In this document: piece by piece, positions 6,268 through 25,650 of the stretch
Position numbering within the stretch: the first letter of the stretch is position 1
How the letters are laid out: each line of letters starts with the position of its first letter
NCBI GenBank assembly: GCA_030700315.1
Contig: JAUYJO010000134.1
Location: 1 to 36,393, forward strand
Direction of reading: 5' to 3'
DNA length: 36,393 nt
Source of the DNA: Gallionella sp.
Lineage (GTDB): Bacteria; Pseudomonadota; Gammaproteobacteria; Burkholderiales; Gallionellaceae
The notes under the pieces: model-generated
What the model saw: the letters and a program-made list of their open reading frames with translations, nothing else
Databases searched by the model: none
Told to the model about the DNA's origin: nothing
Translations under genes and position numbers: made by a program

Positions 6268-6714
6268 ATGTTTCAGGGAGCGGCACAACTTAATCTGGAT
6301 AGCAAAGGCAGGCTCGCGATACCGGCGCGGCATCGCGACATGCTGCTCGCGAATTGCGCGGGCAAGCTGGTGCTGACCGCCGATCCGGATGGCTGCCTGC
6401 TGATGTATCCCGAGCCGGAATGGCAGCCGATCCGCGACAAGCTGAACAAACTTTCCTCTTTTAATGCAAGAAGCCGGGCTTTGCAGCGCCGCTTGGTCGG
6501 CTATGCCGAAAATGTGGAGATGGACGGTGCCGGGCGCGTGTTGATCCCGCCGACCCTGCGCAGCTACGCCGCGCTGGACAAGCATGTGATGCTGGTCGGC
6601 CAAGGCAACAAATTCGAATTGTGGGACGAGGCGAAATGGCGGGCGCAGGAAGAGGCTGGCTTGTCGTTCATGGATGGAGAGTTGCCGCCGGAACTTGAAG
6701 GCTTCTCTTTATGA
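6268..6714 (+). CDS. mraZ: Transcriptional regulator / division protein MraZ
   Basis: A 148-residue protein of the AbrB-fold SpoVT/MraZ type. It binds DNA as an oligomeric ring and represses the dcw operon through the boxes directly upstream. Two repeats of the fold are visible: [20 protein letters not shown] at the N-terminus with the DSKGR motif, and [19 protein letters not shown] at about residues 85-105 with the DGAGR motif. The start is ATG 6268; the earlier in-frame start at 6244 would be inside the operator. The stop codon overlaps the rsmH start (ATGA). Length is normal for the family. Confidence 0.97.
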
Positions 6715-7742
6715 GTGAGGGCTTGGCCCACACCACCGTTTTACTGAATGAAGCAGTCGAGGCGCTGGCCATCAAGCCTGAGGGTATTTATGTGGACGGC
6801 ACGTTCGGGCGCGGCGGGCACAGCGCGCTGATACTGGAGCGGCTCGGCAGCAACGGCAGATTGATCGCGCTGGACAAGGATCCGGCTGCGGTGGGGGCGG
6901 GCAACACATGGCGCGATGCGCGCTTTCAAATGGTGCATCGCGGTTTCGCACAACTGGCGGAAGTGTTGCGCGAACAGGGCGTGGCGAAGGTAGACGGCAC
7001 GACACGGCGTTGCGAAGCATCCGGGGCGGGAGTGCCGTCTTCCACCTTCTCCCGCACCGGAGGGCTTTGCCCCACAGTGTCGAAGGTGGATGGCATCCTG
7101 CTCGATTTGGGCGTGTCGTCGCCGCAACTGGACGATGCGCAGCGCGGTTTCAGTTTTCGTTTTGATGCGCCGCTGGATATGCGCATGGACACCAGCAGCG
7201 GGATGACCGCGGCGCAGTGGCTGGCGACGGTGGATGAAGGTTTTTTGACGGAGGTGATACGTGATTACGGCGAAGAACGGTTTGCTAAGCAGATTGCAAG
7301 GGCGGTTGTTGCGGCGCGCGCGATCCAGCCCATCCACACCACGCGGCAGCTCGTCGAGCTGGTTGGCAAAACGGTACGTACCCGTGAAGCCGGGCAAAAT
7401 CCGGCAACGCGTACCTTTCAGGCTATACGGATTTATCTCAACGGGGAGCTCGAAGAGCTTGCGCGCGTGCTCCCGGAATGCGTGACACACCTCAATGCAG
7501 GCGGGCGTCTGGTGGTGATCAGCTTTCATTCGCTGGAAGACCGCATCGTGAAGCGCTTCATGCGTGACATGGCGGAGGGCGACAAGCTGCCGCGCGGTGT
7601 GCCGATCCGTGCCAGCGAAGTGCCGCAGGGCAGGTTGCATTTGATCGGCAAGGCCGTGCGCGCGACCGGGGCGGAAGTGCGCGCCAATCCGCGCGCGCGC
7701 AGCGCGGTGATGCGCGTGGCGGAGCGCAGCGATGTGGCATAG
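6711..7742 (+). CDS. rsmH: 16S rRNA (cytosine-1402-N4)-methyltransferase with in-frame repeat insertion
   Basis: A 343-residue SAM-dependent methyltransferase (MraW) that methylates N4 of C1402 in 16S rRNA. The SAM motif is [16 protein letters not shown] (about residues 27-42). [20 protein letters not shown] and the C-terminal [13 protein letters not shown] are typical. It is about 30 residues longer than usual. The excess is one segment of 32 codons at about residues 97-128, between two copies of KVDG, where normal family members read directly [15 protein letters not shown]. This segment is a family D palindromic element (see 6999-7082). The frame is open throughout, so the enzyme is probably made with an extra surface loop. 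Translation is coupled to mraZ by ATGA. Confidence 0.95.
6999..7082. repeat. Family D palindrome inserted in frame in rsmH
   Basis: Arms of 33-34 bases at 7000-7032 (CGACACGGCGTTGCGAAGCA start) and 7049-7082 (ending CCCCACAGTGTCG) are imperfect reverse complements. The element is flanked by AAGGTAGACGGC (6987-6998) and AAGGTGGATGGC (7083-7094), a 12-base duplication with two differences. The period is 96 bases, exactly 32 codons. Arm sequences reappear in murD (14783-14870) and at 31763-31848. Confidence 0.88.
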
Positions 7743-8037
7743 CGGCGGGAGCGCATTGAATGCGCTACTGCTGGCGGCGGTGCTGGTCTGCGCGCTGAGC
7801 GTGGTCACTTCGCAGCACAAGGCGCGCAAGCTGTACATCGAACTGCAAAAGCAACGGGAGCATGCGCAGCAGATGGACGTGGAATGGGGGCAGTTGCAAC
7901 TCGAACAAAGCACTTGGGCCGCGCCGGCGCGGGTGGAAAAGATCGCGGCGCAACAATTGCAAATGCGGTTGCCCGGCAGCGGGCAAGTGCAATTTATACG
8001 CTTAGAGCCTGACGGACATATAGACAAACAGCCATGA
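7732..8037 (+). CDS. ftsL: Cell division protein FtsL
   Basis: A 101-residue bitopic protein. A short cytoplasmic head is followed by one transmembrane helix at about residues 8-27 ([20 protein letters not shown]) and a periplasmic coiled coil (about 28-70, rich in Q, E and K). FtsL joins FtsB and FtsQ and activates FtsI/FtsW at the septum. It overlaps the end of rsmH and the start of ftsI, the standard dcw position. Sequence is weakly conserved in this family, so the call rests on topology and position. Confidence 0.92.
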
Positions 8038-9764
8038 ATTATGCAGCCAGCGCACATCCAGACATCACGGCAGAATTGCCCGGATGGCGCGCCACCCTGT
8101 TATTTGCGCTGCTGCTGATCGGGCTGGCCGGATTGTTTGGGCGCGGGGCATACCTGCAAGTCATGCACGACGACTTCCTTCAGGAGAAAGGCAACGCCCG
8201 TTACAGTCGCGTGATCGAAGTCGTCGCGCACCGCGGCATGATTTCCGATCGCAACGGCATCCCCCTCGCGGTCAGCACGCCGGTCGAATCGGTGTGGGCC
8301 AGCCCGGCGGATGTGGAGATCGACAGCCGGCAACTGAAACAATTGGCGCGAATACTCGGCGTGGGCGCGACGGAATTGAAAAGCCGCCTGTCCGATACTT
8401 CGCGCGATTTCGTCTATCTCAAGCGGCAATTGCCTCCCGATCAGGCCGCAAAAGTGGTGAGCCTGAATCTTCCCGGCATTTCCCTGCAACGCGAATATCG
8501 CCGTTACTACCCGTCCGGCGAAGTGGCCGCGCAGGCGTTGGGTTTTACCGGGCTGGACGATAACGGGCAGGAAGGGCTGGAGTTTGCGTTGCAGGAACGG
8601 CTGGCCGGCAAGTCCGGCAGCCAGCGCGTCATCAAGGACCGGCGCGGGCACATCGTCGAGGATGCCGGCAACCTGCATGCGCCCAAGCCGGGCAGCGACA
8701 TTGCGCTGAGCCTGGACAGCAACCTGCAGCACCTCGCCTATCGCGAGCTGGAAAGCGCCGTCAGGCAGCACAAGGCCAAGGCCGGCGCGGTGGTGGTGCT
8801 CGACGCGAAAAGCGGGGAAGTGCTGGCGCTCGCCAATTACCCCGCCTACAACCCCAACAACCGTGGCAAGGCCGGCAACCAGGCGATGCGCAATCGCGCC
8901 GTCATCGACCTGTTCGAACCGGGCTCGACGATGAAGCCGTTCACCGTGGCATGCGCAATCGAGCAGGGCAAGGTGCGCCCGGAGACCGTCATCGACACCG
9001 AGCGCGGCGTGCTGACCGTGGGCAACAAAAAAATTCGCGACACGCACCCGGAACCCGCGCTGACCGTGGCGCAGATCATCCAGAAATCCAGCAATATCGG
9101 CGCGGCTAAAATCGCCTTGTCGATGGAGCCCGAGACGCTGTGGCAGAGCTTGGCGGATAGCGGCTTCGGCGCGCCGACCGGCAGCAATTTTCCGGGCGAG
9201 GCGCCGGGGAAATTGCGCGACGCGAAAACCTGGCGCCCCATCGAGCAAGCCACCCTGTCTTATGGGCACGGCTTGTCGGTGAACCTGCTGCAACTGGCGC
9301 GCGCCTATACCGTGTTCGCCAACAGCGGTGAATTGAAGCCCGTGTCGCTGCTGAAGCTGGAGACGCCCGCAATCGGAAAAAAAGTGTTTTCAAACGATAC
9401 CGCGCACATGCTGCGCGACATGCTGGAGCTGGCGGTACAACCCGGTGGCACGGCGCCGCTGGCGCAGGTGGCGGGCTACCGCGTGGCGGGCAAGACCGGC
9501 ACCGCGCACAAGCTGGAGAAAGGCCGCTACATCGACCGCTATGTCGCCTCGTTTGTCGGCTTCGCGCCGGCATCCAACCCGCGTCTGATCGTGGCGGTGA
9601 TGATCGACGAACCGGACAACGGCCAGTATTACGGCGGCCAGGTCGCCGCACCGGTGTTCAGCAAGGTGACGGGCACGGCATTGCACACACTCAACGTGCC
9701 GAACGATGCGCCGCTGGACAACGTCATTGCGCCGCCGGCGGACATCATCGGGGAGGAGGTGTGA
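8034..9764 (+). CDS. ftsI: Peptidoglycan D,D-transpeptidase FtsI (PBP3)
   Basis: A 576-residue monofunctional class B penicillin-binding protein that cross-links septal peptidoglycan. The transmembrane helix is at about residues 20-42, followed by the dimerisation domain (HRGMISDRNGIPLAVSTPVE, about 66-85). The transpeptidase motifs are SxxK at S298-T-M-K301, SSN at 352-354 and KTGT at 487-490. Length and spacing are as in the family, with no insertion detected. The start overlaps the ftsL stop codon. Confidence 0.97.
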   Translation: MNYAASAHPDITAELPGWRATLLFALLLIGLAGLFGRGAYLQVMHDDFLQEKGNARYSRVIEVVAHRGMISDRNGIPLAVSTPVESVWASPADVEIDSRQLKQLARILGVGATELKSRLSDTSRDFVYLKRQLPPDQAAKVVSLNLPGISLQREYRRYYPSGEVAAQALGFTGLDDNGQEGLEFALQERLAGKSGSQRVIKDRRGHIVEDAGNLHAPKPGSDIALSLDSNLQHLAYRELESAVRQHKAKAGAVVVLDAKSGEVLALANYPAYNPNNRGKAGNQAMRNRAVIDLFEPGSTMKPFTVACAIEQGKVRPETVIDTERGVLTVGNKKIRDTHPEPALTVAQIIQKSSNIGAAKIALSMEPETLWQSLADSGFGAPTGSNFPGEAPGKLRDAKTWRPIEQATLSYGHGLSVNLLQLARAYTVFANSGELKPVSLLKLETPAIGKKVFSNDTAHMLRDMLELAVQPGGTAPLAQVAGYRVAGKTGTAHKLEKGRYIDRYVASFVGFAPASNPRLIVAVMIDEPDNGQYYGGQVAAPVFSKVTGTALHTLNVPNDAPLDNVIAPPADIIGEEV

Positions 9765-11317
9765 TGTTCCCCCTTGACCAGTTAAAAAAACTGAACGTGA
9801 AAATTACGCACCTGGTTTCCGACAGCCGCGCGGTGCGGCAGGGCGACACCTTCGTCGCCTATCCGGGCGAAAAGACGGATGGTCGGCAATTCATCGCGCA
9901 GGCGATCGCGCAGGGAGCGAATGCGGTGATCTACGAAAAGCTTTTGTCCGGGCACCCGTGGAAAGCGCAGTATTTTGTCTGGAACGACGCGTGGCAAATC
10001 CCCAATCTTGCGGTGAGCGACCTGCGCCACAAGGCGGGGTGGCTGGCGGATGCGGTGTATGGCATGCCTTCAGAAAAGCTCTGGCTGGTGGGAGTCACAG
10101 GCACCAACGGCAAGACTTCCACCAGCCACTGGATCGCCCATGCGCTGAACGATGCCGGAAAAAAATGCGCACTGATCGGTACATTGGGCAATGGTTTTGT
10201 TGATGTGCTGCAGGCCAGCGCCAATACCACGCCGGATGCGCTCCGCGTGCATGGCCTGCTCGCGGATTACCAGCGCGCCGATGCGCAAGCCGTGGCGATG
10301 GAGGTGTCCTCGCACGCATTGGCGCAGGGGCGGGTGAACGGCGTGCGTTTCGATGTGGCGCTGCTGACCAACCTGAGCCGCGACCATCTCGATTATCACG
10401 GCGACATGGAAAGCTATGCGGCAAGCAAACGCAAGCTGTTCGATTGGCAGCAACTTAAATTTGCCGTGGTCAATCTCGACGACGCGTTTGGTGCGGAATT
10501 GGCGGAACAATTGCAGGATGGGAAAGTGGAGGTCGTTGGTTACGGGTTGACTGACGCTGCGTTGCAACTTGCCGAGCGCTTAGGTTTGCGCATGGTGTAC
10601 GGCAACCTGGCGCAGATGAGCGGGCATGGCTTGCGGCTGGAGGTGCATTCGAGCTGGGGCGGGGTGCAGGTCAACAGCACGCTGGTCGGGCGTTTCAACG
10701 CGGCGAATCTGCTGGGCGCATTGGCGGTGTTGCTGGTGAGCGGCATTGAGCTGGACAAGGCGGCGCAGTCGCTGGGCAAGGTGCAAGCGGTGGCGGGGCG
10801 GATGCAGCGGCTCGGCAGTGCAGCACAGCCGACGGTCATCGTGGACTACGCGCATACGCCGGATGCGCTGGAGAAAGTGTTGCTGGCGTTGCGCGAGGTC
10901 GGAGCATCTCAAGCTGACCAAGGGGCTGACCAACGGGCTGGACAACAGGGGGGCGGCAGGCTGATCTGCCTATTCGGCTGCGGCGGCGACCGCGACCGTG
11001 GCAAGCGCGCGATGATGGGACGGGTCGCCGAAAAATTTTCCGACCATTGCATCGTCACCAGCGACAACCCTCGCAGCGAAGACCCGCAGCACATCATCGC
11101 CGAAATACTTGGCGGCATGACCGCGAACAACCACGAGATCATCGTCGAGCGCGCCGCCGCCATCGGGCGCGCCATCGGCCTGGCGCGGCAACACGACACC
11201 GTGTTATTGGCCGGCAAGGGGCATGAGGATTACCAGGAAATCGCCGGCGTGAAGTATCCGTTCAGCGATGTGTCGGTTGCCGAAGGCGCGCTGCGAACCT
11301 GGAGGGCGCCGGCATGA
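9764..11317 (+). CDS. murE: UDP-MurNAc-L-Ala-D-Glu:meso-diaminopimelate ligase
   Basis: A cytoplasmic Mur ligase of about 517 residues that adds meso-diaminopimelate to the peptide stem. The ATP-binding loop GVTGTNGKTS is at about residues 110-119. The DNPR motif (SDNPRSEDP), which reads meso-DAP in this family, is present in the C-terminal domain, so the peptidoglycan is of the standard Gram-negative type. The start is ATG 9764, because GGGAGGAGG at 9751-9759 would be too close to GTG 9761. A short low-complexity stretch at about residues 384-396 (ASQADQGADQRAGQQGGG) comes from 12-base near-repeats GCTGACCAAGGG / GCTGACCAACGG / GCTGGACAACAG (10914-10949) and lengthens a loop before LICLFGCGGDRDRGKR. 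Confidence 0.96.
   Translation: MFPLDQLKKLNVKITHLVSDSRAVRQGDTFVAYPGEKTDGRQFIAQAIAQGANAVIYEKLLSGHPWKAQYFVWNDAWQIPNLAVSDLRHKAGWLADAVYGMPSEKLWLVGVTGTNGKTSTSHWIAHALNDAGKKCALIGTLGNGFVDVLQASANTTPDALRVHGLLADYQRADAQAVAMEVSSHALAQGRVNGVRFDVALLTNLSRDHLDYHGDMESYAASKRKLFDWQQLKFAVVNLDDAFGAELAEQLQDGKVEVVGYGLTDAALQLAERLGLRMVYGNLAQMSGHGLRLEVHSSWGGVQVNSTLVGRFNAANLLGALAVLLVSGIELDKAAQSLGKVQAVAGRMQRLGSAAQPTVIVDYAHTPDALEKVLLALREVGASQADQGADQRAGQQGGGRLICLFGCGGDRDRGKRAMMGRVAEKFSDHCIVTSDNPRSEDPQHIIAEILGGMTANNHEIIVERAAAIGRAIGLARQHDTVLLAGKGHEDYQEIAGVKYPFSDVSVAEGALRTWRAPA
10914..10949 (+). repeat. Three 12-base near-tandem repeats inside murE
   Basis: GCTGACCAAGGG, GCTGACCAACGG and GCTGGACAACAG follow each other without a gap. 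They encode ADQG-ADQR-AGQQ. As 4-codon units they keep the frame of murE. Confidence 0.75.
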
Positions 11318-12885
11318 TGCTGCTCTCGCAAGCCGCACAGGCCCTGGGCGCGCGCCTGGTCGGAGAGGATGCGCGCATTTTTGCCGTGTCCAGCGACTCG
11401 CGCAAGATACAGCCGGGTGATTTATTCATCGCGTTGCGCGGCGAGCATTTCGATGGCTACGAGTTTGTCGCGACCGCCATGCAGTCCGGCGCCGTGGCGG
11501 CGCTGGTCAACGCCGATAGCTATGCGGCGCATAACGCTATTCTCGACCCGCGATCCTCGATGCTGGTCGTGGACGATACCCGTTTTGCGCTGGGGCAACT
11601 CGCGGCGTACTGGCGCAGGCAATTCGACATTCCGCTGGTGGCGATCACCGGCAGCAACGGCAAGACCACGGTGAAGGAAATGCTCGCCGGCATTCTGCGC
11701 GTGGCGGCAGGCAGCGATAACGCGGTGCTGGCCACAAAGGGCAATTTCAACAACGACATCGGTATGCCGCTGACCTTGCTGCAACTGAACGCGCAGCATC
11801 GTTATGCGGTGATCGAAATGGGCATGAACCATCCCGGTGAAATCAATTATCTGACGCAGATCGCCTGCCCCGACGTGGCGCTGATCACCAATGCCAGCGG
11901 CGCGCATCTGGCAGGGATGGGGTCGGTGGAAGCGGTGGCGCACGCCAAGGGGGAAATCTTTTCCGGGCTTCAACAGCAGGGAACCGCCGTGATCAATGCC
12001 GACGATGCCCATGCGCCGCTGTGGCGGAAGCTGACCGGTTCGCACCCGTTGCTCGAATTCGGCCTGGACGGGGAGCAAGCCGACGTGACCGGGCAATGGC
12101 AGCCGCATCCCCGCAAGGGGGAGGCCGAGGGGTACCCGATGCCTTTGGCATCACCCTCTCGCACGGGCGTCGGGCTGCATCTGGATGCCCGCACCCCCTC
12201 GGGGGATTTCAGCGCGAACCTGCAGGTGCTCGGCGCGCACAATGCGCGCAACGCCCTGGCGGCAACTGCCGCTGCCATCGTGTTGAATGTGCCGCTGGAA
12301 GTCATCGTTCTGGGGCTGGAAAAATTTGGCGGCGTCGCAGGGCGATTGCAGCGCAAGGCCGCGCGGCATGGCGCGGCGCTGATCGATGACACCTACAACG
12401 CCAACCCCGCCTCGGTACGTGCAGCGATCGACGTGCTGGCCCAAGTGGCGCAGGCTGGCGGCAAGCGCGTGCTGGTGCTTGGCGACATGGGCGAATTGGG
12501 CGACAACGCCGCTGTGTTCCATGCCGAGATCGGCAGCGCAGCACGCGAGGCCGGGATCGATAAACTCTATGCGTTGGGCCCGTTGAGCATCAACGCGGCG
12601 CGCGATTTCGGCGACGGCGCAGAGCATTTCGAGCGCATCGAAGACTTGCAGAAAGCGCTGGAAAACGAACTGGACGCAGATACCACCGTGCTGGTGAAAG
12701 GCTCGCGCTTCATGAAAATGGAGCGCGTGGTGCAGTTTTGCCTCGGCGACGGGAAGGAGGAGTGGGCAAAGGGGCAAGGGGAAAGCCAAGGGGAAAGCCA
12801 AGTAGAAAGCGAGAAGGGCAGTTCCGTGTTGACACCTTCTTCCCCATTGCCCCCTCCCCCTTCTCGCGATGGGAGGACACAGTAA
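11314..12885 (+). CDS. murF: UDP-MurNAc-tripeptide:D-Ala-D-Ala ligase with two repeat-derived segments
   Basis: A 523-residue Mur ligase that joins D-Ala-D-Ala to the tripeptide precursor (typical length about 450). The ATP loop [15 protein letters not shown] is at about residues 109-123. KGNFNNDIGMPLTLL and DDTYNANPASVRAAID are diagnostic. There are two extra segments. Residues of about 260-292 (from PHPRKGEAEG to LDARTPSGDF) come from an imperfect palindrome. The last 45 residues after VQFCLG (GESQGESQVES and a Pro/Ser-rich end) come from another repeat. Both keep the frame. GGAGG at 11301-11305 fits ATG 11314. The start overlaps the murE stop codon and the stop is directly followed by mraY. 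Confidence 0.95.
   Translation: MMLLSQAAQALGARLVGEDARIFAVSSDSRKIQPGDLFIALRGEHFDGYEFVATAMQSGAVAALVNADSYAAHNAILDPRSSMLVVDDTRFALGQLAAYWRRQFDIPLVAITGSNGKTTVKEMLAGILRVAAGSDNAVLATKGNFNNDIGMPLTLLQLNAQHRYAVIEMGMNHPGEINYLTQIACPDVALITNASGAHLAGMGSVEAVAHAKGEIFSGLQQQGTAVINADDAHAPLWRKLTGSHPLLEFGLDGEQADVTGQWQPHPRKGEAEGYPMPLASPSRTGVGLHLDARTPSGDFSANLQVLGAHNARNALAATAAAIVLNVPLEVIVLGLEKFGGVAGRLQRKAARHGAALIDDTYNANPASVRAAIDVLAQVAQAGGKRVLVLGDMGELGDNAAVFHAEIGSAAREAGIDKLYALGPLSINAARDFGDGAEHFERIEDLQKALENELDADTTVLVKGSRFMKMERVVQFCLGDGKEEWAKGQGESQGESQVESEKGSSVLTPSSPLPPPPSRDGRTQ
12104..12206. repeat. Palindromic insertion in murF, internal
   Basis: Arms CCGAGGGGTACCCGATGCC (12125-12143) and GGATGCCCGCACCCCCTCGG (12183-12202) are imperfect reverse complements. 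CCCGCAAGGGGGAGG on the left side is a small dyad typical of the intergenic G/C-rich elements. A short inner dyad, GATGCCTTTGGCATC, is also present. Confidence 0.65.
12748..12877. repeat. Repeat block encoding the murF C-terminal extension
   Basis: The left arm (GGAAGGAGGAGTGGGCAAAG, 12751-12770) and right arm (CCCCATTGCCCCCTCCCCCT, 12843-12862) are imperfect reverse complements. Between them the 12-base unit AGGGGAAAGCCA is repeated directly (GESQ-GESQ). The block ends just before the ribosome binding site of mraY. Confidence 0.65.
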
Positions 12886-13971
12886 ATGTTGCTCGCACTC
12901 GCCCAATGGCTGGCACAGGACATCAGGTTTTTCAGCGTGTTCAATTACATCACGCTGCGCACCGTGCTGGCGGCGATGACCGCTCTGGTCATCTCGTTCA
13001 TGGTCGGCCCGGCGATGATCCGCAAACTGACCGCCTACAAGATCGGCCAGTCGGTGCGCAGCGACGGGCCGCAGACGCACCTGGTCAAGGCCGGTACGCC
13101 GACCATGGGCGGCGCGCTGATTCTGGTCGCCATCGCCGTCACCACCCTGCTGTGGGGCGATCTGTCCAACCATTACGTGTGGCTGGTGCTGTTCACCACA
13201 CTGGGTTTCGGCGTGATCGGCTGGGTCGACGATTACCGCAAAGTGGTGCACCGCAACCCCAAGGGGCTGTCGGCCAAAACCAAGATGTTCTGGCAATCGC
13301 TGATCGCGTTGGCGGTTGGCTTCTATCTGTGGGAAACCGCGACGCTGCCGGCGCAGACCGAACTGATCGTGCCGTTCTTTAAATTTTGGGTGTTTCCGCT
13401 CTCCGCCTTCCTGTTCATCGTGCTGGCCTATCTGGTCATCGTCGGCACCAGCAACGCGGTAAATCTGACCGACGGTCTGGACGGGCTGGCGATCCTGCCT
13501 ACCGTGATGGTGAGCGGCGCGCTGGCGGTCTTCGCTTATGTCGCGGGCAATGCGGTGTTCTCGAAATATCTCGGCATCCCCTACATCCCCGGCGCGGGAG
13601 AACTGGCGGTGTTTTGCGGTGCGCTGGCCGGTGCGGGTCTGGCGTTCCTGTGGTTCAACGCCTACCCCGCCGAAGTGTTCATGGGCGATGTCGGCGCGCT
13701 GTCGCTTGGCGCGGCGCTCGGCATCGTGGCGGTGATCGTGCGCCAGGAACTGGTGCTGTTCATCATGGGTGGCGTGTTCGTGGTCGAGGCGGTGTCGGTG
13801 ATGATCCAGGTGGCCTCTTTCAAGCTCACCGGCAAGCGCGTGTTCCGCATGGCACCGCTGCACCATCACTATGAGTTGAAGGGCTGGAAAGAGACGCAGG
13901 TCGTCGTGAGATTCTGGATTATCACCATGCTGCTGGTGCTGGTGGGATTGGCGACGTTGAAGTTGAGATGA
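12886..13971 (+). CDS. mraY: Phospho-MurNAc-pentapeptide transferase
   Basis: A 361-residue polytopic membrane enzyme that transfers phospho-MurNAc-pentapeptide to undecaprenyl phosphate to make lipid [10 protein letters not shown] carries the paired aspartates. [33 protein letters not shown] and the histidine cluster HHHYELKGW are the family signatures. About ten hydrophobic helices are visible. Length is normal and no repeat insertion is present. The start is immediately after the murF stop codon, with GGAGG at 12872-12876. Confidence 0.97.
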
Positions 13972-15458
13972 CACAACTAAAAGACAAATTCGTGCTGGTG
14001 CTCGGTCTCGGTGAGACCGGCCTGTCGATGCTGCGCTGGCTGAGCGCGCAGGGCGCGCGCCTGCGCGCCGCGGATAGCCGCTACGAGCCGTCCGGCTTGG
14101 CCGAAGCCGGCCAATATGTCGAGGCCGGGCAGATATTCTGCGGCGCATTCTGCGACAGTTTGCTCAACGGCATCGACCTGATCGCCATCAGCCCCGGCGT
14201 GCCCATGCGCGATGAATTTGTGGCACGCGCCATCGCGAGCGGCATTCCAGTGGTTGGCGACATCGAACTCCTGGCGCAGCAACTCATGGACTTCGACTTG
14301 CGGCTCACGACCAAAGTCATCGCGATCACCGGTTCCAACGGCAAGACCACCGTGACCAGTATGGTGGAGCATATGTGCAAGGCGGCGGGCAAGGATGCGG
14401 TTGCGGCGGGCAACATCTCCCCGGCGGTGCTGGACGTGGTGCTGGCGCGCGGCGCGAAGCAACCGGAGGTATGGGTGCTGGAATTGTCCAGCTTCCAGCT
14501 CGAAACGACCGCGACGCTGAACCCCGACGCGGCGACGGTGCTCAACATCAGCGAAGATCATCTGGATCGCTATGCCGGTATCGATGAATACGCGGCGGCC
14601 AAGGAACGCATATTTGTCGGCAACGGAGTGCAGGCGCTGAATCGCGACGACGCACGCAGTATGGGCATGGCGCACACCGGGGGCAGGATTATTACCTTCG
14701 GCTTGAACTTGCCCGGCAGCGCAAACGATTTTGGCATTGAAAAAGCGGGGAATGAAATCTGGCTGGTGCGGGGTGGCGGTCGCGACACGTTACTGGCACA
14801 GCCAGCCGGGTGCGGGAGCGACCGCCCGGACGCCCTTCCCGCACCAGAGTGCTCCGCACCACCGTGTCAGGGCGTCCACCGTCTGCTCAAGTCCAGCGAG
14901 CTTCGCATTGCCGGGTTGCATAACGTCGCCAATGCACTGGCCGCGCTGGCGCTGTGCAGCGCAATCGATCTGCCGATGCCGGCCTTGCTCGAAGCGTTGC
15001 GCAGCTTCAGGGGGTTGCCGCATCGCGTGGAGCGCGTGGCCGAAATCGACGGCGTGGTCTATTACGACGACTCCAAGGGAACCAATGTCGGCGCGACGGT
15101 TGCCGCCCTGGAAGGGCTGGGCAGAAGGGTGGTGCTGCTGGCGGGCGGCGAAGGTAAGGGGCAGGATTTCGCCCCGCTCAAGCCACCCGTAATGCGACAT
15201 GCGCGCGCGGTAGTGCTGATCGGGCGTGATGCACCGCTGATCGCGGCGGCGCTGGAGGGCTGCGGCGTGCCGCTGCGCTACGCCAAAAATATGGGTGATG
15301 CGGTGCGCCATGCCGCGCAACTCGCGCAATCGGGCGACGCGGTATTGCTGTCGCCGGCTTGCGCCAGCTTCGACATGTTCCGCAACTACGCGCATCGTGC
15401 CGAGATGTTTGTGGAAGCGGTGCACGAGCTGATCAAGGAGGCCGCATGGTCGCGCTGA
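13968..15458 (+). CDS. murD: UDP-MurNAc-L-alanine:D-glutamate ligase with in-frame repeat insertion
   Basis: A 496-residue Mur ligase that adds D-Glu (family members have about 440-460). The N-terminal substrate domain begins with [16 protein letters not shown]. The ATP loop [18 protein letters not shown] is at about residues 118-135, followed by [10 protein letters not shown] and [10 protein letters not shown]. The excess is at about residues 270-307: [18 protein letters not shown] and so on to CQGVHRLL. It falls in a loop just before the conserved [20 protein letters not shown] and is encoded by a family D element. [13 protein letters not shown] and [15 protein letters not shown] close the protein normally. 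It overlaps mraY by ATGA and the ftsW start by 13 bases. Confidence 0.95.
14783..14870. repeat. Family D palindrome inserted in frame in murD
   Basis: The left arm at 14783-14818 (CGACACGTTACTGGCACAGC start) and the right arm at 14835-14870 (CTTCCCGCACCAG to CACCGTGTCAG) are imperfect reverse complements. The left arm matches the left arm of the intergenic copy at 31763 almost base for base. Confidence 0.82.
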
Positions 15459-16681
15459 CTGCCATCAGAGATAGGCAAGCTGGCAGAGATATGCGGGCTG
15501 GTGCACCCGAGCCGCGCCGCCCTGCCGCCGCCCAAGCGCGCATGCACCTGCCGCAGACGCAGTTCGACGCGCTGCTGATCTGGGTATTGGTCGCGCTGCT
15601 TGCGCTGGGTCTGGTGATGGTTTATTCCGCCTCGATCGCCACTGCGGAAGCCGGAAAATTTACCGGCTACCAGCCAACCTATTATTTATTGCGGCACGGG
15701 ACGTATATCGCCGTGGGCGTGCTGGCCGGTTTGTTCGCCTTCCAGGTGCCGCTGACGGCGTGGCGGGCCGGCGCGCCCTACCTGTTCCTGTCCGGTGTGG
15801 CCTTGCTGGCGCTGGTGCTGATCCCCGGCATCGGCCGCGAAGTCAACGGCAGCAACCGCTGGTTGTCGCTCTATGTCATCAATCTGCAACCTTCCGAACT
15901 GATGAAGCTGTTCGTCGTGCTGTATGCCGCCAGTTATACGGTGCGCAAGGTGAAGGTGAAGGACACCTTCGTCAAGGCGTTCATGCCGATGTTTGCGGTG
16001 ATGCTGCTGGTCGGCTGCCTGTTGCTGATGGAGCCGGACATGGGTGCGTTCGTGGTGATTCTCGCCATCGCCCTTGGCATGTTGTGGCTGGGCGGCTACA
16101 ACATCAAGATATTTTTCGCGCTGCTGCTGGCGTTGCCGGTCGCGTTCGCCGCACTGATCTATTTTTCGCCCTACCGGATGCAGCGCATCGTCGGCTTCCT
16201 GGATCCGTGGTCCGACCCGTTCGGCAAGGGCTACCAGCTCAGCCACGCATTGATCGCCTTCGGGCGCGGCGAATGGTTCGGCGTGGGGCTGGGCGGCAGC
16301 GTGGAAAAACTGTTCTATCTGCCGGAAGCGCATACCGATTTTCTGATGGCCGTCATCGCCGAAGAACTGGGGCTGCTCGGCGTAACGGCGGTGATCGCGC
16401 TGTTTGCATTGCTGGTGCTGCGCTCCTTTCAGATCGGCCGCCATGCCGCCTTCCTCGAACGCAATTTTTCCGCGCTGACCGCGCAGGGCATCGGCGTGTG
16501 GCTGGGCGTGCAGGCGATGATCAACATCGGCGTAAATATGGGCGTGCTGCCGACCAAGGGGTTGACCTTGCCGTTTCTCAGCTTCGGCGGCAGCGGCCTG
16601 GTGGTCAACTGCATCGCGGCTGCGGTGCTGCTCAGAGTCGATTACGAGAATAGAAGAGTTGCTCGGGGGTTGCCGGTATGA
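15446..16681 (+). CDS. ftsW: Peptidoglycan glycosyltransferase FtsW (SEDS)
   Basis: A 411-residue SEDS-family polymerase that works with FtsI at the septum. There are about ten membrane helices after a 35-residue polar head. The SEDS signatures [25 protein letters not shown] and [20 protein letters not shown] are visible. The start is ATG 15446, because AAGGAG at 15435-15440 is five bases upstream; the frame opens earlier, at 15359, but only within murD. The Arg/Ala-rich head ([20 protein letters not shown]) is longer than usual, and M33 in MHLPQTQFD could also be considered. The stop overlaps the murG start (ATGA). Confidence 0.95.
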
Positions 16682-17904
16682 GGTCAGAGGACAGAAGACA
16701 GAGGACAGAGGACAGAGGTTTTGTTGCCGCTGCGCGGCACCTTTTTAATAAAGGCGCGGCCAAGCCGCTCGACGCTCTGTCTTCTGTCCCCTGTCCTCTG
16801 TCATCTGAGCCTCTGTCCTCTGATCAGAATCGTTCGATTCTGATCATGGCCGGCGGCACCGGCGGGCACATCATGCCGGGGCTGGCGGTCGCCGACATCC
16901 TGCGCGCGCAGGGGTGGCGGGTGACCTGGCTGGGCGCGCCGGGCGGCATGGAGGCGGAACTGGTGCCGAAGCACGGTTACGAAATGGCCTGGGTAAACTT
17001 CTCCGGCGTGCGCGGCAAGGGCTTGCTGCGCCTGTTGTTGCTGCCGTTCACGCTGCTGCGCGCACTGGGGCAGAGCGCGGTCGCGATGTTCCGCCATCGT
17101 CCCGACGTGGTGCTGGGCATGGGCGGTTACATCACTTTTCCCGGCGGGCTGATGGCGGCCATGTTGCGCCGCCCGCTGGTGATCCACGAACAGAATTCCA
17201 TCGCCGGGCTGAGCAACAAGGTGCTGGCGCGCCTCGCGCAGAAGACGCTGAGCGGTTTCCCCGACGTGCTGCCCAAGGCGGTCTGGTGCGGCAACCCGGT
17301 ACGCGGCAGCATCGCTGCATTGGGCGATTCGCAGACACGTTATGCGGCGCGCAGCGGCAGGCTGAATGTGCTGGTGGTGGGCGGCAGCCTCGGGGCGAAG
17401 GCGCTCAACGAAACCATGCCGCAGGCGCTCGCGTTGCTGCCGGCAGAGGTACGCCCGAATGTGGTTCATCAAACCGGCAAACAGCATTTTGCGACCGTGC
17501 AACAGATGTATAAACAGGCCGGCGTGCGGGCCGACATTCGCCCGTTTCTCGACGACATGGCCGGTAGCTACGCGAATGCCGATGTGGTGATCTGCCGCGC
17601 CGGCGCGTTGACCATCGCGGAGCTGGCGGTGGCAGGCGTGGCGAGCATCCTGGTGCCGTTCCCGTTTGCGGTGGACGACCACCAGACGCACAACGCGCGC
17701 TTTCTCTCCGAGCGCGGCGCGGCATGGTTGTTGCCGCAAAGCGAATTGAATGCGGAGAAACTGGCGCAGTTGCTGCGCGACCTGATGAATGATGGGCAGG
17801 GGCGCGAAAAACTGTCGGTGATGGCGCAGCAGGCGCGCGGCGCAGCCAAGACCGATGCGGCACAACGAGTCGCGCAGGTTTGCGCGGAACTGGCTGAAGC
17901 ATGA
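16678..17904 (+). CDS. murG: Lipid II synthase MurG with repeat-encoded N-terminal extension
   Basis: A 408-residue GT28 glycosyltransferase that adds GlcNAc to lipid I at the inner membrane face (normal length about 355). The core begins at about residue 54 ([20 protein letters not shown]), and [15 protein letters not shown] and [19 protein letters not shown] are typical. Residues 2-50 ([40 protein letters not shown]) are translated from a family C element lying exactly between the coupled ATGA start and the old coding region. I read every codon from 16681 to 16843 and found no in-frame ATG, GTG or TTG. M57 is already inside the first beta strand and glycine loop. The extended protein is therefore the only normal-looking product. 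Confidence 0.93.
16684..16844. repeat. Family C (GACAGAGGACAGA) palindrome at the 5' end of murG
   Basis: The left arm (16684-16716) is built of AGAGGACAGA units. The right arm (about 16775-16820) is CTCTGTCTTCTGTCCCCTGT-like. The core is TTTTGTTGCCGCTGCGCGGC, then a short AT-rich stretch and CGCGGCC. The right edge holds a further perfect dyad, GATCAGAATCG / CGATTCTGATC (16821-16844). The core is shared with the copy at 19416-19619. Confidence 0.9.
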
Positions 17905-20576
17905 AACATAAAGTCAAACATCTGCATTTCGTCGGCATCGGCGGCTCCGGCATGAACGGCATCGCCGAGGTACTGCTGAACCTCGGCTTTCAGGTCAGCG
18001 GCTCCGACCTCGGCGAGAACGTCGCCACGCAACGCCTCAAACAGCTTGGCGCGACGGTGTATCTCGGTCATGCCGAACAGCATCTCACCAACGCCGATGC
18101 GGTGGTGGTGTCCACCGCCGTCAAGGCAGACAACCCGGAAGTGGTCGCGGCGCGCGCGCGCCGCATCCCGGTGGTGCCGCGTGCGATGATGCTCGCGGAA
18201 CTGATGCGCTTGCGCCAGGGCATCGCGGTGGCGGGCACCCACGGCAAGACCACCACCACTTCGCTGGCCGCCAGCGTGCTGGCCAAGGGCGGTTTCGATC
18301 CCACTTTCGTGATCGGCGGCAAGCTCAACAGCAGCGGCGCCAATGCAAAGTTGGGCACCGGCGAATTTATCGTCGCCGAGGCCGACGAATCGGATGCGTC
18401 GTTCCTGTACCTGCAGCCTATCCTCGCGGTGATCACCAATATCGACGCGGATCACATGGAGACCTACGGCCACGATTTCGGCAGGCTCAAGCAGGCGTTC
18501 GTGGACTTCGTCGAACACCTGCCGTTCTACGGTATGGCGATGCTGTGCATCGACGACGCCAACGTGCGCGAAATCCTGCCGCGCATCAGCAAGCCGGTAT
18601 GCACTTACGGGCTCAGTGAGGGTGCAATGATCCGCGCGGTCAACGTGCGCCATCAGGGCGGACAGATGCGCTTCACCGCCGAGTGCCGCCAGAACGGCAC
18701 GCCGAAAGACCTGGACATCACCTTGAACCTGGCCGGGACGCACAACGTGTTGAACGCGCTCGCCGCGATCGCGATCGGGCTGGAAGTGTGCGTAACAGAT
18801 GATGCGATCGTTGCGGCTTTGGCCGAGTTCCAGGGGGTGGGGCGGAGGTTTCAGCGGTACGGTGAAATACAGTTGTCCGACTACCCTCTCTCCAACTCTC
18901 TGGGTGAAACAACTAGCCATTCGACTAGGCTGCAAGAAACCGCAGCCAAGTCGCTGGTTATCCCGCCTGCGGGAGAGAGAGCAATCGATTCCTCTTCCAA
19001 AGGCGGAAGAGGAAGTTTCACTCTTATCGACGACTACGGTCACCATCCGGTGGAAATGGCGGCCACGCTGGCGGCGGCGCGTGGCGCATTTCCCGGCAGG
19101 CGGGTGGTGCTGGCCTTTCAGCCACACCGCTACACGCGCACCCGCGACTTGTTCGAGGATTTCGTCAAAGTGTTGCGCGGCGTGGACGCGCTGTTGCTGG
19201 CGGAGGTGTATGCGGCGGGAGAGCCGCCTATCGTCGCGGCAGACGGGCGCGCGCTGATGCATGCGCTGCGCGTCGCCGGGCAGGACGAGGCTGTATTCGT
19301 CGAAAACATTCAGGATATGCCGCAGGCCATCATGCAGATGGCGCGCGGCGGCGATGTGGTGATCACGATGGGCGCGGGCTCAATCGGCGGCGTGCCGGGC
19401 ATGCTGGCGCATGCGGCAGAGGACAGAGGACAGAGGACAGAGGACAGAGATTTTGTTGCCGCTGCGCGGCAATCTTTCGATAAAAACGCGGCCAACCCCC
19501 ATCCAACCCCTCCCCCAGAGGGGGAGGGATCAATTGCCCTTTCCCCCAGAGGGGGAAAGATGGATAGAGGGCTGCCGCTCAACACTCTGCCCTCTGTCTT
19601 CTGTCTTCTGTCCTCTGAATTGCGCGGGAAAATGTGCTGCGACGTGCCGATGAGCCGCCATACCAGCTGGCGCGCGGGCGGTGTGGCCGAGCGTCTGTAC
19701 CGGCCCGCCGATATCGCCGACCTGCTGGTATTTCTGCGCGGCCTGCCTGCCGACGAGTCGCTGCATGTAGTGGGCCTGGGCAGCAACCTGCTGGTGCGCG
19801 ACGGCGGCTTGCGCGGCACGGTGCTGTTGCTGCACGGCGCGCTGGGCGGACTGCGCCTCGAAGCTGACGGCAGCATCTCCCCGCAAGGAGGAGGCCGTGG
19901 TTGTAAAGCCACTGAAGCGGCAACAACCACGCTCTATGCCGAAGCAGGAGTGCCGGGTGCAAAGCTGGCGCGCTTCGCCGCGCTGCACGATCTGCGCGGC
20001 GCGGAATTTTGCGCCGGTATCCCCGGCACGGTCGGCGGCATGTTGGCGATGAACGCCGGCTGTTACGGCAGCGAGATTTGGGAGAAGGTGCTGCGCGTGC
20101 AGACGGTGACGCGCTGCGGTGAGCTGATCGAACGCACGCCGCAGGATTACGAGATCGGGTATCGGCATGTTGTCAGGAATCAGGAATCAGGAATCCGGGA
20201 TCAGGAATCTTCCGAGTTTTTCGTCGCCGCATGGCTGAAGTTTGAAGCGGGCGACGGCGCAATCGCGCGGCAGGAAATCAAAGCGCTGCTCGGCAAGCGC
20301 ATCGCCAGCCAGCCGCTGAATTTACCGAATGCCGGATCGGTGTTCCGCAACCCGCCGGGCGATCATGCGGCGCGGTTGATCCAGCAATGCGGCCTGAAAG
20401 GCAGGCGCATCGGCGGCGCGCAGGTGTCGGAGAAACATGCCAACTTCATCGTGAATACGGGCGGAGCGACGGCGGCGGATATCGAAAATTTGATCAATGA
20501 AGTGCGGGCAGCGGTGCGGCAACAGACCGGCATCGACCTGCACCCGGAAGTGCGAATTATTGGGGAAGCGGCATGA
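17901..20576 (+). CDS. murC-murB: Fused MurC-MurB: UDP-MurNAc:L-Ala ligase + UDP-MurNAc dehydrogenase
   Basis: One open frame of 891 codons. Residues 1-503 are MurC, with the nucleotide site [10 protein letters not shown] (11-20), the ATP loop [11 protein letters not shown] (111-121) and the C-terminal [10 protein letters not shown]. Residues from about 578 to the end are MurB, with [45 protein letters not shown], the catalytic serine in [12 protein letters not shown], and EVRIIGE. The linker (about 504-577) is repeat-encoded and family C-like. MurC has an extra segment at about 329-372 before [12 protein letters not shown]; MurB has two more (19872-19928 and 20168-20208). Translation of MurB alone could begin at ATG 19560 (after AGGGGGAAAG), TTG 19620 or ATG 19632, so a fused DNA frame does not prove a fused protein. 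The start overlaps murG (ATGA). Confidence 0.92.
18886..19018. repeat. Composite in-frame insertion in murC (family B hairpin plus flanking dyads)
   Basis: The family B arms are AACTAGCCATTCGACTAGGC at 18911 and, as the complement, GCAGCCAAGTCGCTGGTT at 18942-18959. CCCTCTCTCCAACTCTCT on the left and GGGAGAGAGAGC on the right form an outer dyad. A second, separate hairpin, TTCCTCTTCC-AAAGGC-GGAAGAGGAA, with perfect 10-base arms, follows at 18989-19014. The flanks GGTGAAACAACTAGCC and GGTTATCCCG match the intergenic copies at 23906-23970 and 25504-25566. Confidence 0.85.
19416..19619. repeat. Family C element with nested palindrome at the murC-murB junction
   Basis: The left arm is AGAGGACAGA repeated at 19419-19450. 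Then comes the core TTTTGTTGCCGCTGCGCGGC, as in murG. The right arm, CCTCTGTCTTCTGTCTTCTG (about 19590-19609), leads into TCCTCTGAATT. Inserted between core and right arm is a second G/C-rich palindrome, CCCCTCCCCCAGAGGGGGAG and TTTCCCCCAGAGGGGGAAAG (about 19507-19559). No stop codon occurs in the murC frame. Confidence 0.88.
19872..19931. repeat. Small dyad insertion in the murB part
   Basis: CGTGGTTGT (19896-19904) and ACAACCACG (19923-19931) are perfect inverted arms, preceded by the dyad CTCCCCGCAAGGAGGAG. The segment encodes about 19 residues ([19 protein letters not shown]) between LRLEADG and [15 protein letters not shown], where family members need only a few residues. Confidence 0.7.
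20168..20208 (+). repeat. ATCAGGA direct repeats inside murB
   Basis: Units of TCAGGAA / ATCAGGA are repeated four to five times, one with a changed CCGGG. They encode [14 protein letters not shown] in a loop between YRHVV and [14 protein letters not shown]. This is only one arm of a possible palindrome; no complementary arm is visible nearby. Confidence 0.75.
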
Positions 20577-20586
20577 ATACGATGAT

Positions 20587-20663
20587 GCGTAGGGTGGGCA
20601 CAGTTTTATCGTGCCCACGCGGACAGAAATCGCGTGGGCACAAAGTACGTGCCCACCCTACGC
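20587..20663. repeat. Palindrome (TAGGGTGGGCAC) between murB and ddl
   Basis: Perfect 15-base outer arms, GCGTAGGGTGGGCAC (20587-20601) and GTGCCCACCCTACGC (20649-20663). An inner dyad, GTGCCCACGCG / CGCGTGGGCAC, lies at 20611-20641. It separates the murB stop (20576) from ddl by about 110 bases, in an operon where most genes overlap. Confidence 0.88.
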
Positions 20664-20688
20664 TTGGATTGGATATTGGATGGAGTAC

Positions 20689-21600
20689 ATGAAGAGATTC
20701 GGAAAAGTGGCAGTGTTGTTCGGCGGCAAATCCGCCGAGCGCGAAGTGTCGCTGAAAAGCGGCGCGGCGGTGCTGGCGGCTTTGCAGCGCAGCGGCGTGG
20801 ATGCGCACGCCTTTGACCCGGCGACACAGAACTTGCAGGCTTTGCGCGACGAAGGTTATGAGCGCGCCTTTATCGCGCTGCACGGGCGCTTTGGCGAAGA
20901 CGGCACGGTGCAGGGTGCGCTGGAACTGCTGGGCATTCCCTACACCGGAAGCGGCGTGCTGGCCTCCGCGCTGGGCATGGACAAATGGCGCACCAAGCTG
21001 GTGTGGCAGGCGGCGAGATTGCCGATACCAGCATACACATTGCTGGATGAACAAAGCGACTGGGATGCAGTGGTGCAGCAATTGGGTTTGCCGCTGTTCG
21101 TCAAACCGGCCAACGAAGGCTCCAGCGTCGGCATCAGCAAGGTGAAGACAGTCGGCGAATTGCGTGGCGCTTATCAGGCGGCCGCGAAGCACGATTCACT
21201 CGTTCTGGCGGAAAGTTTCATCGGCGGTGGCGAATACACCGTGGCAATTCTCGGCGATGAGGCATTGCCGGTGATCAAGATTGAGCCGGCCAACGAGTTC
21301 TACGATTACGAGGCGAAATATTTGCGCGACGACACCCGCTACCTGTGCCCATGCGGCCTGGACGCGGCGCAGGAAGCTGAGATGCAGCGCCTGGCCAAAC
21401 AGGCTTTCGCGCTGATCGGCGGACAAGGCTGGGGGCGGGTGGATTTTCTGGTGGACGAAGCGGGCAAGCCCTATCTGCTGGAAGCGAACACCTCGCCGGG
21501 GATGACCGACCACAGCCTGGTGCCGATGGCGGCGCGCCAGGCCGGTATCAGTTTCGAGCAACTGGTGTTGCGCGTATTGGAGTCGGCGCATGTGGGATAA
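20689..21600 (+). CDS. ddl: D-alanine--D-alanine ligase
   Basis: A 303-residue ATP-grasp enzyme that makes the D-Ala-D-Ala dipeptide used by Mur[20 protein letters not shown] is the N-terminal signature, ending in the conserved serine. [19 protein letters not shown] is the ATP-grasp lysine and glycine-rich loop. [20 protein letters not shown] is the C-terminal metal and substrate site. The start is ATG 20689 ([11 protein letters not shown]) or ATG 20680 (MEYMKRF). Codons further upstream are part of the palindrome at 20587-20663 and are not family-like. The end overlaps the ftsQ start. Confidence 0.95.
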
Positions 21601-22381
21601 CGCCGCCCTGTTGCGCAACATCGCCAACGCGCTGCTGGCTTTCAGCGTGCTGGCGGCGCTATACGGGGCCGCTTATTACATTGCGCATCTGCCGGGGTTG
21701 TTGCCGTTGCACAGCGTGCGCTTGAGTGCGGTGCCGCAGCGGGTGATTTCCGGGGATGTGTTGCAGGCGGTGCGCAGTGAGGTGAACGGCAATTTCTTCA
21801 CCGTGGATATCGGGCGGCTAAGGCAGTCGCTGGAAAAATTGCCGTGGGTGCGCAGCGTCGCGATCCGGCGCGAGTTCCCCGACCGGCTGGCGGTGCATCT
21901 GGAGGAACACCAGGCGCTGGCGCGCTGGAACGGCGCGGCGTTGGTGAATACCTATGGCGAGGTGTTCAGCGCTGATACCGGGCAGGTATTGCCTGATTTT
22001 ATGGGGCAGACAGGTGATTCGGGCGAGGTTACGCAGCGCTACGGCGACTTCAGCCGGCAGCTCGCCGCACTTGATTTGCAAGTGGTGCAACTGGCCTTGT
22101 CGCCGCGCCATGCCTGGCAGTTGCGCCTGAGCAACGGCACGGTGCTGGAGTTGGGGCGCGAGCAGATGCAGCAGCGCCTGGCGCGGTTCGTGGCGGTTCA
22201 GAAGACAGATGACATAACCAGCGACTTGGCTGGCGTTGTTTGCCAGCCTAGTCGAATGGCTAGTTGTTCCATCAGAAGACAGATGACAGAAGGCGCGGTG
22301 AAATATGTTGACCTGCGCTATCGCAACGGATTTGCCGTCAGGCGGATGGTGGAAGATAGAAAGCTGGGGGCTGAAAGTTGA
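21590..22381 (+). CDS. ftsQ: Cell division protein FtsQ with in-frame family B insertion
   Basis: A 263-residue bitopic protein of the FtsQ-B-L divisome complex. The transmembrane helix is at about residues 10-32 ([20 protein letters not shown]). The POTRA domain ([19 protein letters not shown] to [20 protein letters not shown]) and the beta domain follow. Between ARFVAV and KYVDLRY is a stretch of about 35 residues ([33 protein letters not shown]) that is translated from a family B palindrome. In FtsQ proteins this part is a helix-to-strand turn near the FtsB-binding edge. The tail ends soon after FAVRRMVE. The sequence is otherwise complete. Confidence 0.92.
22199..22288. repeat. Family B hairpin in ftsQ with 16-bp flanking direct repeats
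   Basis: The arms are AACCAGCGACTTGGCTGGC (22216-22234) and its imperfect complement, starting GCCAGCCTAGTCGAATGGCT (22242-22265). The flanks are identical copies of CAGAAGACAGATGACA at 22199-22214 and 22273-22288. The flank is itself family C-like sequence, so a B element probably entered a C fragment. Confidence 0.92.
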
Positions 22382-22526
22382 AGATATTAAAAATTGAGGG
22401 CGCAAGGAAGGTGGCGGGAAATAGACAGGCTTTTCTGTCCTCTGTCTTCTGTCCTCTGATGGAGCAACTAGCCATTCGACTAGGCTGGCAAACAACGCCA
22501 GCCAAGTCGCTGGTTATGTCTTCTGA
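22382..22526. repeat. Family C fragment plus family B hairpin between ftsQ and ftsA
   Basis: This 160-base gap has no gene. It holds a short stretch with GTTGAAGATATTAAAAATTG, a C arm (CTGTCCTCTGTCTTCTGTCC, 22435-22454) and then a B hairpin with arms starting at AACTAGCC (22466-22489) and ending TCGCTGGTT (22497-22515). It is followed by ATGTCTTCTGAAG, as at the ftsQ copy in reverse. Confidence 0.85.
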
Positions 22527-22541
22527 AGCGGAGCGCACGCG

Positions 22542-23785: not shown

Positions 23786-24044
23786 ACACAAAATGGAAAC
23801 CCAAACCCCCTCCAGCTCCCCCTTGTCAGGGGGAGAGCTCACCTCCTCCCCTGAAGTGGGGTAAGCAGGCAATCCGCGCAGCGGATGCTCGCACAAGGGG
23901 GAGGTCGGGATAACCAGCGACTAGGCCATCGCCTTTTGATGGTCTAGTCGAATGGCTAGTTGTTTCACCAGGGGGTCGGGGTAAAAGGTGCAGCAATCTT
24001 GCGAGACGTTTCAACATCAGGGGTGGCTACTGCCATGCCTGTTA
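23786..24044 (+). repeat. Family A element, copy A3, with nested insert and family B hairpin
   Basis: Left ACACAAAATGGAAACCC, right GGCTACTGCCATGCCTGTTA. In the G/C-rich palindrome, CCCCTGA is followed by AGTGGGGTAAGCAGGCAATC and GCGCAGCGGATGCTCGCA before CAAGGGGGAGG continues, a nested insert that also occurs at 25450 and 35130. A family B hairpin (23911-23960) is nested further right. This separates ftsA from ftsZ by 374 bases; the final 107 bases before ftsZ are ordinary leader sequence. Confidence 0.9.
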
Positions 24045-25364: not shown

Positions 25365-25410
25365 GTAGGTCGGGCTTCAGCCCGACATGTCGGGTTAAAA
25401 CCCGACCTAC
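25365..25410. repeat. Family G palindrome (46 bp) after ftsZ
   Basis: GTAGGTCGGG and CCCGACCTAC outer arms, with two inner dyads (CGGGCTTCAGCCCG and CGGGTTAAAACCCG) around CATG. It is the exact reverse complement of 35270-35315. It may serve as a terminator-like structure after ftsZ, although no T-run follows. Confidence 0.93.
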
Positions 25411-25423
25411 GGATATCTTTCGC

Positions 25424-25650
25424 TTGTCAGGGGGGGGAGCCTTCTCCCATGAAGTGGGGTAAGCAGGCAATCCGCGCAACGGATGCTCGCACAAGGGGAG
25501 GTTGGGATAACCAGCGACTTGGCCATCGCCTTTTGATGGCATAGTCGAATGGCTAGTTGTTTCACCAGGGGTTTGGGGTTCAGAGTAAAACGCGAAGCAA
25601 CCCTAAAAAATGTTTCATTGACAGGGATGGCATACTAGCCATGCCCGTTA
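25424..25650 (+). repeat. Family A element, copy A4 (left end missing)
   Basis: Starts inside the palindrome at TTGTCAGGGG. It contains the nested GAAGTGGGGTAAGCAGGCAA insert (about 25450), then the family B hairpin (25509-25558), then GGAGT-like AGAGTAAAACGC and the right end TAGCCATGCCCGTTA at 25650. The last three bases are the stop codon, read on the minus strand, of the prepilin gene. Confidence 0.88.

Follow-up and report, generated by a model that had tools for sequence, protein, structure and literature searches.

The window analysed here, a stretch of 36,393 bases from contig 187 of genome G000, covers the dcw cluster region of a metagenome-assembled, Gallionella-like genome (3.52 Mb in 243 contigs; completeness 95%, contamination 5.4%). 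The host is a freshwater iron oxidiser, and the closest named relatives of its MraY are metagenome-assembled genomes of Gallionella, Nitrosomonadales and Ferrigenium, at 95–90% identity. Short hairpin-forming repeats lie inside, at the ends of, and between the genes of this cluster (Table 1). Each gene was aligned with orthologues from 34 dcw regions of the same genus and 80 named loci, giving 98–110 sequences per gene and 56 for ftsZ; L and G numbers denote loci and genomes compared, and the relatives used for empty sites were chosen by script among the close ones. As the original prediction on this DNA had claimed, repeat elements occupy open frames in many dcw genes. The keeping of the frame is partly a survivor effect, because cells with an essential gene thrown out of frame by an insert would go unseen.

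Alignment bore out the predicted extra segments in rsmH, murF, murD, murC and the first of two in murB. The RsmH segment, 32 aa as aligned against orthologues, comes from a family BC element that is present at the identical site in L039, and the site is empty at the DNA level in L059 and L025; imperfect 12-nt direct repeats on either side (6987–6998 and 7083–7094, identical at 10 of 12 positions) resemble a target-site duplication. The palindromic element F of murF has related DNA, reversed, in ftsQ of L063, and its site is empty in L059 and L056. A grouping of F with short elements of L032, L034, L037, L049, L060 and L064 into one family lacks support, the window copy having matched L063 alone. 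The BC element of murD has a relative in murC of L060 and faces an empty site in relatives at the DNA level; an apparent murD insertion in L025 and L056 was set aside because it sits ahead of the murD start, and was judged to be mraY–murD intergenic. The MurC segment measures 37 aa in the orthologue alignment and 41 aa in the clade comparison, and its empty state is a loop of just 7–8 aa, seen in 20 of 31 clade loops. Element E of murB recurs at the same site in L023 (56 of 57 nt identical), and the site is empty at the DNA level in other relatives. In the closest solved structures, the aligned blocks to either side of the insert are separated by 2 residues for MurC, 2 for RsmH and 5 for MurD; the window proteins have 45, 33 and 38 residues between the same blocks.

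The remaining internal segments behave differently. The ftsQ element, a reversed family A core, is bounded by two identical 16-nt direct repeats (22199–22214 and 22273–22288), and native residues are replaced by the repeat, not added to. The minor segment predicted in murE does align as an insert, but it had no second match in the clade DNA searched and is a weak case. The second murB segment did not hold up: the window loop has 16 aa and the clade loop ranges over 9–42 aa, so that it is not an extra stretch. The view that the added residues are just long loops of naturally variable length, and no repeat insertions, is correct for this segment and perhaps for murE. In rsmH, murF, murD, murC, the first murB segment and ftsQ, however, the extra DNA matches other clade DNA, and relatives have no residues at these sites (in ftsQ, other residues). 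Empty sites for rsmH, murF, murD and murB and short loops for murC contradict that view at most positions, which makes it very improbable as a general account. An artefact of metagenome assembly or binning, raised alongside the original prediction, would suit a fragmented assembly of 243 contigs with 5.4% contamination; yet L039 shares the rsmH insert and L023 the murB insert, each at an unchanged site, which makes assembly error unlikely, and the same family occurs in relatives with long contigs, as in murE of G007. We give an artefact practically no weight.

At gene ends, the predicted segments were found at the murF C-terminus and the murC–murB junction, and that of murG is probable. The murF C-terminal extension is probably of repeat origin, as its match in a relative suggests. 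In the window, murC and murB form one 891-codon open reading frame (ORF; 17901–20576) whose junction lacks a stop codon; of the 111 loci that contain murC, two have the fusion, the window and L040, with heptamer repeats at both junctions. For murG, most clade genomes start 4–5 codons ahead of the conserved motif, and the window gene has no ATG, GTG or TTG from the overlapping ATGA start up to this motif. An inverted copy of downstream codons at 16822–16845, forming a GATCAGAATCG/CGATTCTGATC palindrome, lies at the position of the relatives' murG start. This palindrome replaces the usual start, so the upstream overlapping ATGA is the sole start remaining; with the usual codon lost, an N-terminal extension of MurG by a family D repeat appears probable. 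The repeats in the ftsW–murG spacer differ among several of 13 loci inspected.

Table 1. Repeat-related features of the window.
Feature	Position	Strand	Evidence
Family BC element inside rsmH, 28 aa	6999..7082	+	orthologue alignment, DNA matches
13-aa insert in murE	10910..10948	+	orthologue alignment; weak case
Palindromic element of family F within murF, 19 aa	12109..12165	+	orthologue alignment
murF C-terminal extension, probably repeat-derived	12751..12882	+	single DNA match, in L023
Family BC element inside murD, 33 aa, orientation opposite to the rsmH copy	14769..14867	+	orthologue alignment
Heptamer-ended hairpin (family D), probable N-terminal extension of murG	16678..16836	+	repeat match, folding, start-codon check
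Composite family A element (core in C-rich/G-rich palindrome) inside murC, 41 aa	18885..19007	+	alignment, DNA matches
Family D element at the murC–murB junction	19415..19620	+	repeat matches, no stop codon
Palindromic element E inside murB, 19 aa	19878..19934	+	orthologue alignment, folding
CAGGAAT-type heptamer repeats in a variable murB loop (second murB segment)	20171..20210	+	repeat match, loop survey
Family A core, reverse orientation, in ftsQ	22199..22288	+	repeat match, alignment
Intergenic family A copy, ftsQ–ftsA	22445..22535	+	repeat match
Intergenic family A copy, ftsA–ftsZ	23904..23975	-	repeat match
Intergenic family A copy, downstream of ftsZ	25485..25572	-	repeat match
Intergenic family BC copy	31761..31856	+	repeat match

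The main element, family A, is an imperfect hairpin of ~60 nt with conserved ends and a variable inner stem. The core often belongs to a composite of ~100 nt, nested in a C-rich/G-rich palindrome (P) or adjoining heptamers. In an alignment of 55 copies, 9 pairs carry two-sided changes, amounting to 53 such cells, a level that 0 of 500 shuffles reached; these changes are confined to the inner helix, and the outer helix has none. The exact core has 77 matches in this genome (37 + 40) and none for a backward control. It occurs in 4 of 150 genomes of the order, counting this genome and one more of the genus, and a looser DNA search matched 38 of 41 genus genomes (25 of 41 at the peptide level). 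Seven exact cores in G102, which belongs to a different family of the same order, suggest horizontal spread. At L159:1625–1708, a family A copy is broken by extra sequence resembling another short repeat. No GTAG or CGTC tag stands at either end in the 55-copy alignment, the exact core motif had no match in the published papers searched, and no part of the window reached the gathering threshold of any Rfam family.

Family BC is a single family seen in both orientations, one way in rsmH and the other in murD, and was located in rsmH, murD, murC and murG of the window and clade. Family D, in murG and at the murC–murB junction, matches at most seven other clade loci and, within the window, itself and very weakly the ftsQ region; for element F of murF, element E of murB and the murF tail, a single relative each gave a match. 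The earlier statement that these repeats also lie between genes of the window is thus borne out for families A and BC and not for D. The ends of family D and the second murB segment consist of tandem 7-nt units like the tandem heptamer repeats known as STRR. Arrays of CAGAGGA are stop-free in every frame on both strands; CAGGAAT heptamers are stop-free on one strand only, the strand used in murB. RNA folding z-scores are pronounced for murG (-9.0), murC and ftsQ (-4.6 each), murD (-3.8) and murB (-3.4), and weak for rsmH (-1.5) and murF (-1.2).

Confinement to peptidoglycan genes, as first supposed, does not survive a wider search. In this genome, 5 of 30 family A loci are in frame in coding ORFs, the window murC included, and all five give a peptide of the PLPNPL..TTSHST..KSLVI.. 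type; the 30 loci were picked for their likeness to the murC copy, a choice that may bias the set towards the orientation and frame of that copy. Family A is mostly extragenic. Of 79 composite copies in 2.45 Mb of clade DNA, 14 fall within coding ORFs (one place counted twice), and in the 41 genus genomes a hand count placed 45 of the 150 peptide matches listed in stop-free frames of at least 300 aa, read from stop to stop and of unproven gene status. MurC, MurE, MurD, TsaD, RsmB and glucokinase all have the usual peptide in frame, which makes the phenomenon genome-wide. By Pfam, one set of ten proteins with family A comprises tsaD (two species), rsmB, NAD(P)H-hydrate dehydratase, cobD, glucokinase, a thioredoxin-domain protein, a sulfite reductase-type protein, murD and one protein without a Pfam match; further ORFs with family A are a cobQ-type one, glnE and those of a YgjP-like protein and a histidine kinase. 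In murD of G015 (L292), the repeat is close to the C-terminus of the ORF, past the ligase domains. Other repeats sit in recG, apbE, moeA, priA and queA. In priA, queA and these ORFs with family A, the cobQ-type one apart, the repeats count as putative extra segments.

Family A has a preferred reading frame. Among 67 untranslated cores, the frame termed same-2 is open in 60, same-0 in 49, opp-1 in 48, opp-2 in 31 and the others in at most 3. Eight of 11 independent in-gene sites use same-2, against an open-frame share of 31% in the 67 other copies (p=0.005), so that more than frame openness may be at work. The 11 sites, partly chosen for their likeness to murC, were collapsed by hand: L157 and own_L255 count as one place, three murC-site copies likewise count once, and the A_full rows contributed ftsQ. 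The outer palindrome P has a single orientation in 13 of 13 independent in-gene copies (p=2e-4), collapsed by hand from 19 rows of which six were dropped as ends of A composites; the orientation of P is less certain than that of A, because P is nearly palindromic. The frame preference bears on whether the inserts are bypassed by the ribosome or spliced out to leave mature enzymes normal. Compact hairpins within essential enzymes would be compatible with such removal, but it would not require in-frame, stop-free sequence, and the preferred frame and the stop-free heptamers suggest read-through instead; we regard bypass or splicing as highly improbable.

The density of repeats in the dcw cluster was compared by reciprocal best hits, using 300 kb from each of four relatives and our own sample, with a minimum insert of 8 aa and after removal of three G007/G027 rows that represented repeated or low-complexity protein domains. 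In the four relatives, repeat-derived inserts occur in 7 of 54 dcw genes and in 5 of 436 others (Fisher p=7e-5), and the difference persists among genes of at least 250 aa (7 of 51 versus 5 of 250; p=0.001). The own sample gave 3 of 12 dcw genes and 5 of 68 others, and G027 no repeat-derived insert among the dcw or other genes compared. A binomial test with an assumed 2600 genes was not relied on. The proposed concentration in dcw genes is therefore supported in number but suggestive only, because the relatives share history and the dcw cluster was a selected region.

Within the cluster, a few loops recur. Internal extra segments of at least 12 aa, repeat-derived or not, occur in 48 of 557 dcw gene copies of the clade and in 25 of 865 outside it. 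The 48 divide into murC (10), murD and murE (8 each), murB (6, including L040, whose added stretch is the murC fused to it), ftsW (5), ftsQ, murF and murG (3 each) and rsmH (2). Neither clade nor outside copies of mraY, ftsA, ftsZ and ddl have such a segment; ftsI has none in clade copies and two outside the clade, so that the genes predicted to be free of segments are so in the clade copies examined. Among loci fitting the search pattern, and with one spurious murB match left out, loop length ranges over 7–50 aa in murC (n=31), 9–42 aa in murB (n=33) and 7–51 aa in murE (n=26), and these loops vary between species in both length and repeat carried. A stronger proposition, on which we place a rather small chance, is that unrelated elements repeatedly reach or replace each other in the same loops (murC, murB, murE and the ftsW–murG junction), with strand and frame bias and a real dcw enrichment. 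Such reuse would mean that the elements arrive by a common route, perhaps insertion as single strands or recombination between copies guided by the hairpins, in place of random insertion and selection, and the Mur enzyme loops would be fast-changing, species-specific cassettes.

We hold with good confidence that several unrelated families of mobile, non-autonomous hairpin repeats are tolerated in flexible loops and apparently read through in frame. Direct observation of repeat identity, empty sites, open frames, recurrence across genes and species and covariation in the family A hairpin carries this explanation. On this model, short hairpin-forming, non-autonomous repeats of several unrelated families would spread through genomes of the Gallionella clade. 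A minority sit in frame in conserved genes, where stop-free frames would turn them into extra segments of ~15–50 aa. They would persist where the protein tolerates an insert, at a few recurrent loops, gene ends and gene junctions; tolerance in a few recurrent loops would lead different species to carry different repeats in the same loop. From the sequences we infer that the repeats are mobile, through an enzyme or through recombination of one copy with another, that they are translated as part of the mature protein, and that they are nearly neutral.

Several results weigh against this explanation. No transposase could be linked to the elements. The genome has four Y1_Tnp genes (RAYT-type) over the Pfam cut-off, and in the flanking DNA examined insert-like repeats accompany 2 of 5 Y1_Tnp matches, at a distance of ~700 bases, where they lie within priA and queA. 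The link was dropped, as no insert-like element directly flanks Y1_Tnp genes in that DNA. Candidate target-site direct repeats occur at rsmH and ftsQ only, and the ftsQ pair could be heptamers; for family BC, a duplication was sought in rsmH, murD, murC (L060) and murG (L022, L027) and was convincing at rsmH only. Among the peptide matches listed, 105 of 150 are not in a stop-free frame of at least 300 aa. Finally, four shared inserts are 93–98% identical and all 16 flank windows are lower, at 62–92%, one just marginally. Simple descent of a neutral insert would not predict inserts closer than their flanks; the contrast could come from recombination that moves inserts between species, from gene conversion among repeats or from constraint acting on the hairpin. 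The low divergence of the shared inserts also suits hairpins kept for a function in mRNA or DNA (mRNA stability, ribosome pausing or transcription-coupled effects), with the peptide as a by-product, as do the strong covarying hairpin, the orientation bias of P and the dcw enrichment. Site and family nevertheless vary by species, close relatives do without the insert, and covariation is equally consistent with an element structure kept for mobility. We consider such a function unlikely to explain the inserts, and favour tolerated mobile repeats.

The closest known system is the Rickettsia palindromic element (RPE), the precedent first invoked for this locus. RPEs (Ogata et al. 2000 and 2002, cited by PMC2229807, PMC10969869 and PMC3733652) are hairpins of ~100–150 nt in several families, found in frame in unrelated conserved genes and also between genes. 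The repeats here are likewise multi-copy hairpins, both intergenic and in frame in unrelated conserved genes, and the preferred frame of family A gives the same peptide in different genes, which leaves RPE the best analogy at the level of organization. Unlike RPEs, whose host is obligate intracellular, these elements reside in an iron-oxidising betaproteobacterium, are partly nested, and share loops with unrelated repeats of other species. Intragenic repetitive extragenic palindromes (REPs) of the GTAG and CGTC superfamilies have been described in conserved genes, also of non-intracellular bacteria, with an emphasis on DNA synthesis and repair genes, and coding-region REPs encode 43–82 aa in Thauera and R. 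conorii (PMC3733652). Two Xanthomonas species carry different REPs at about the same recB site (PMC3733652), a precedent for the loop reuse seen here. Those REPs are tagged palindromes of 20–40 nt, whereas family A is untagged and longer. G-rich heptamers of Xanthomonas and Nostoc are under-represented in coding regions (PMC4692102); the arrays described here, in contrast, form hairpin arms in or beside genes. Miniature inverted-repeat transposable elements and other small mobile sequences with ORFs (RU/ERIC, Correia) form hairpins and are sometimes fused to genes in frame (PMC2229807, PMC10969869). Our elements are also non-autonomous, hairpin-forming and in frame in genes, but neither an autonomous partner nor a consistent target-site duplication was found.

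In-coding palindromes are thus known already from Rickettsia, Wolbachia and free-living bacteria, with in-frame cases in O. terrae, Thauera and others (PMC3733652, PMC2229807, PMC2996958, PMC10969869, PMC4692102). Thauera is a betaproteobacterium and hence a precedent within that group; for Gallionellaceae, titles and abstracts of the literature searched, mostly without subscription papers, describe no such elements, and the main text of two genome papers (PMC3770913, PMC10734462) does not mention palindromes, repeats, hairpins, or in-frame or selfish elements. What looks new is the combination of many unrelated families, nesting and reuse of the same loops by different repeats across species. 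In-frame palindromic insertion in essential genes is thereby extended to a genus-level clade of iron oxidisers, whose 41 searchable genomes, with filled and empty loops at the same places, form a natural experiment on selfish DNA becoming protein. The inserts also inform which loops of Mur ligases and RsmH tolerate an additional 20–50 residues, and how adjacent genes come to be fused by repeats, as in murC–murB.

Two further observations concern other parts of the window. At 25365–25411 and 35270–35316, intergenic paired palindromes of the form GTAGGTCGGG...CCGACCTAC resemble GTAG-tagged, REPIN-like REP doublets. The segments at 28740–28810 and 33502–33572 are 75% alike and look like paralogous genes, not dispersed repeats.

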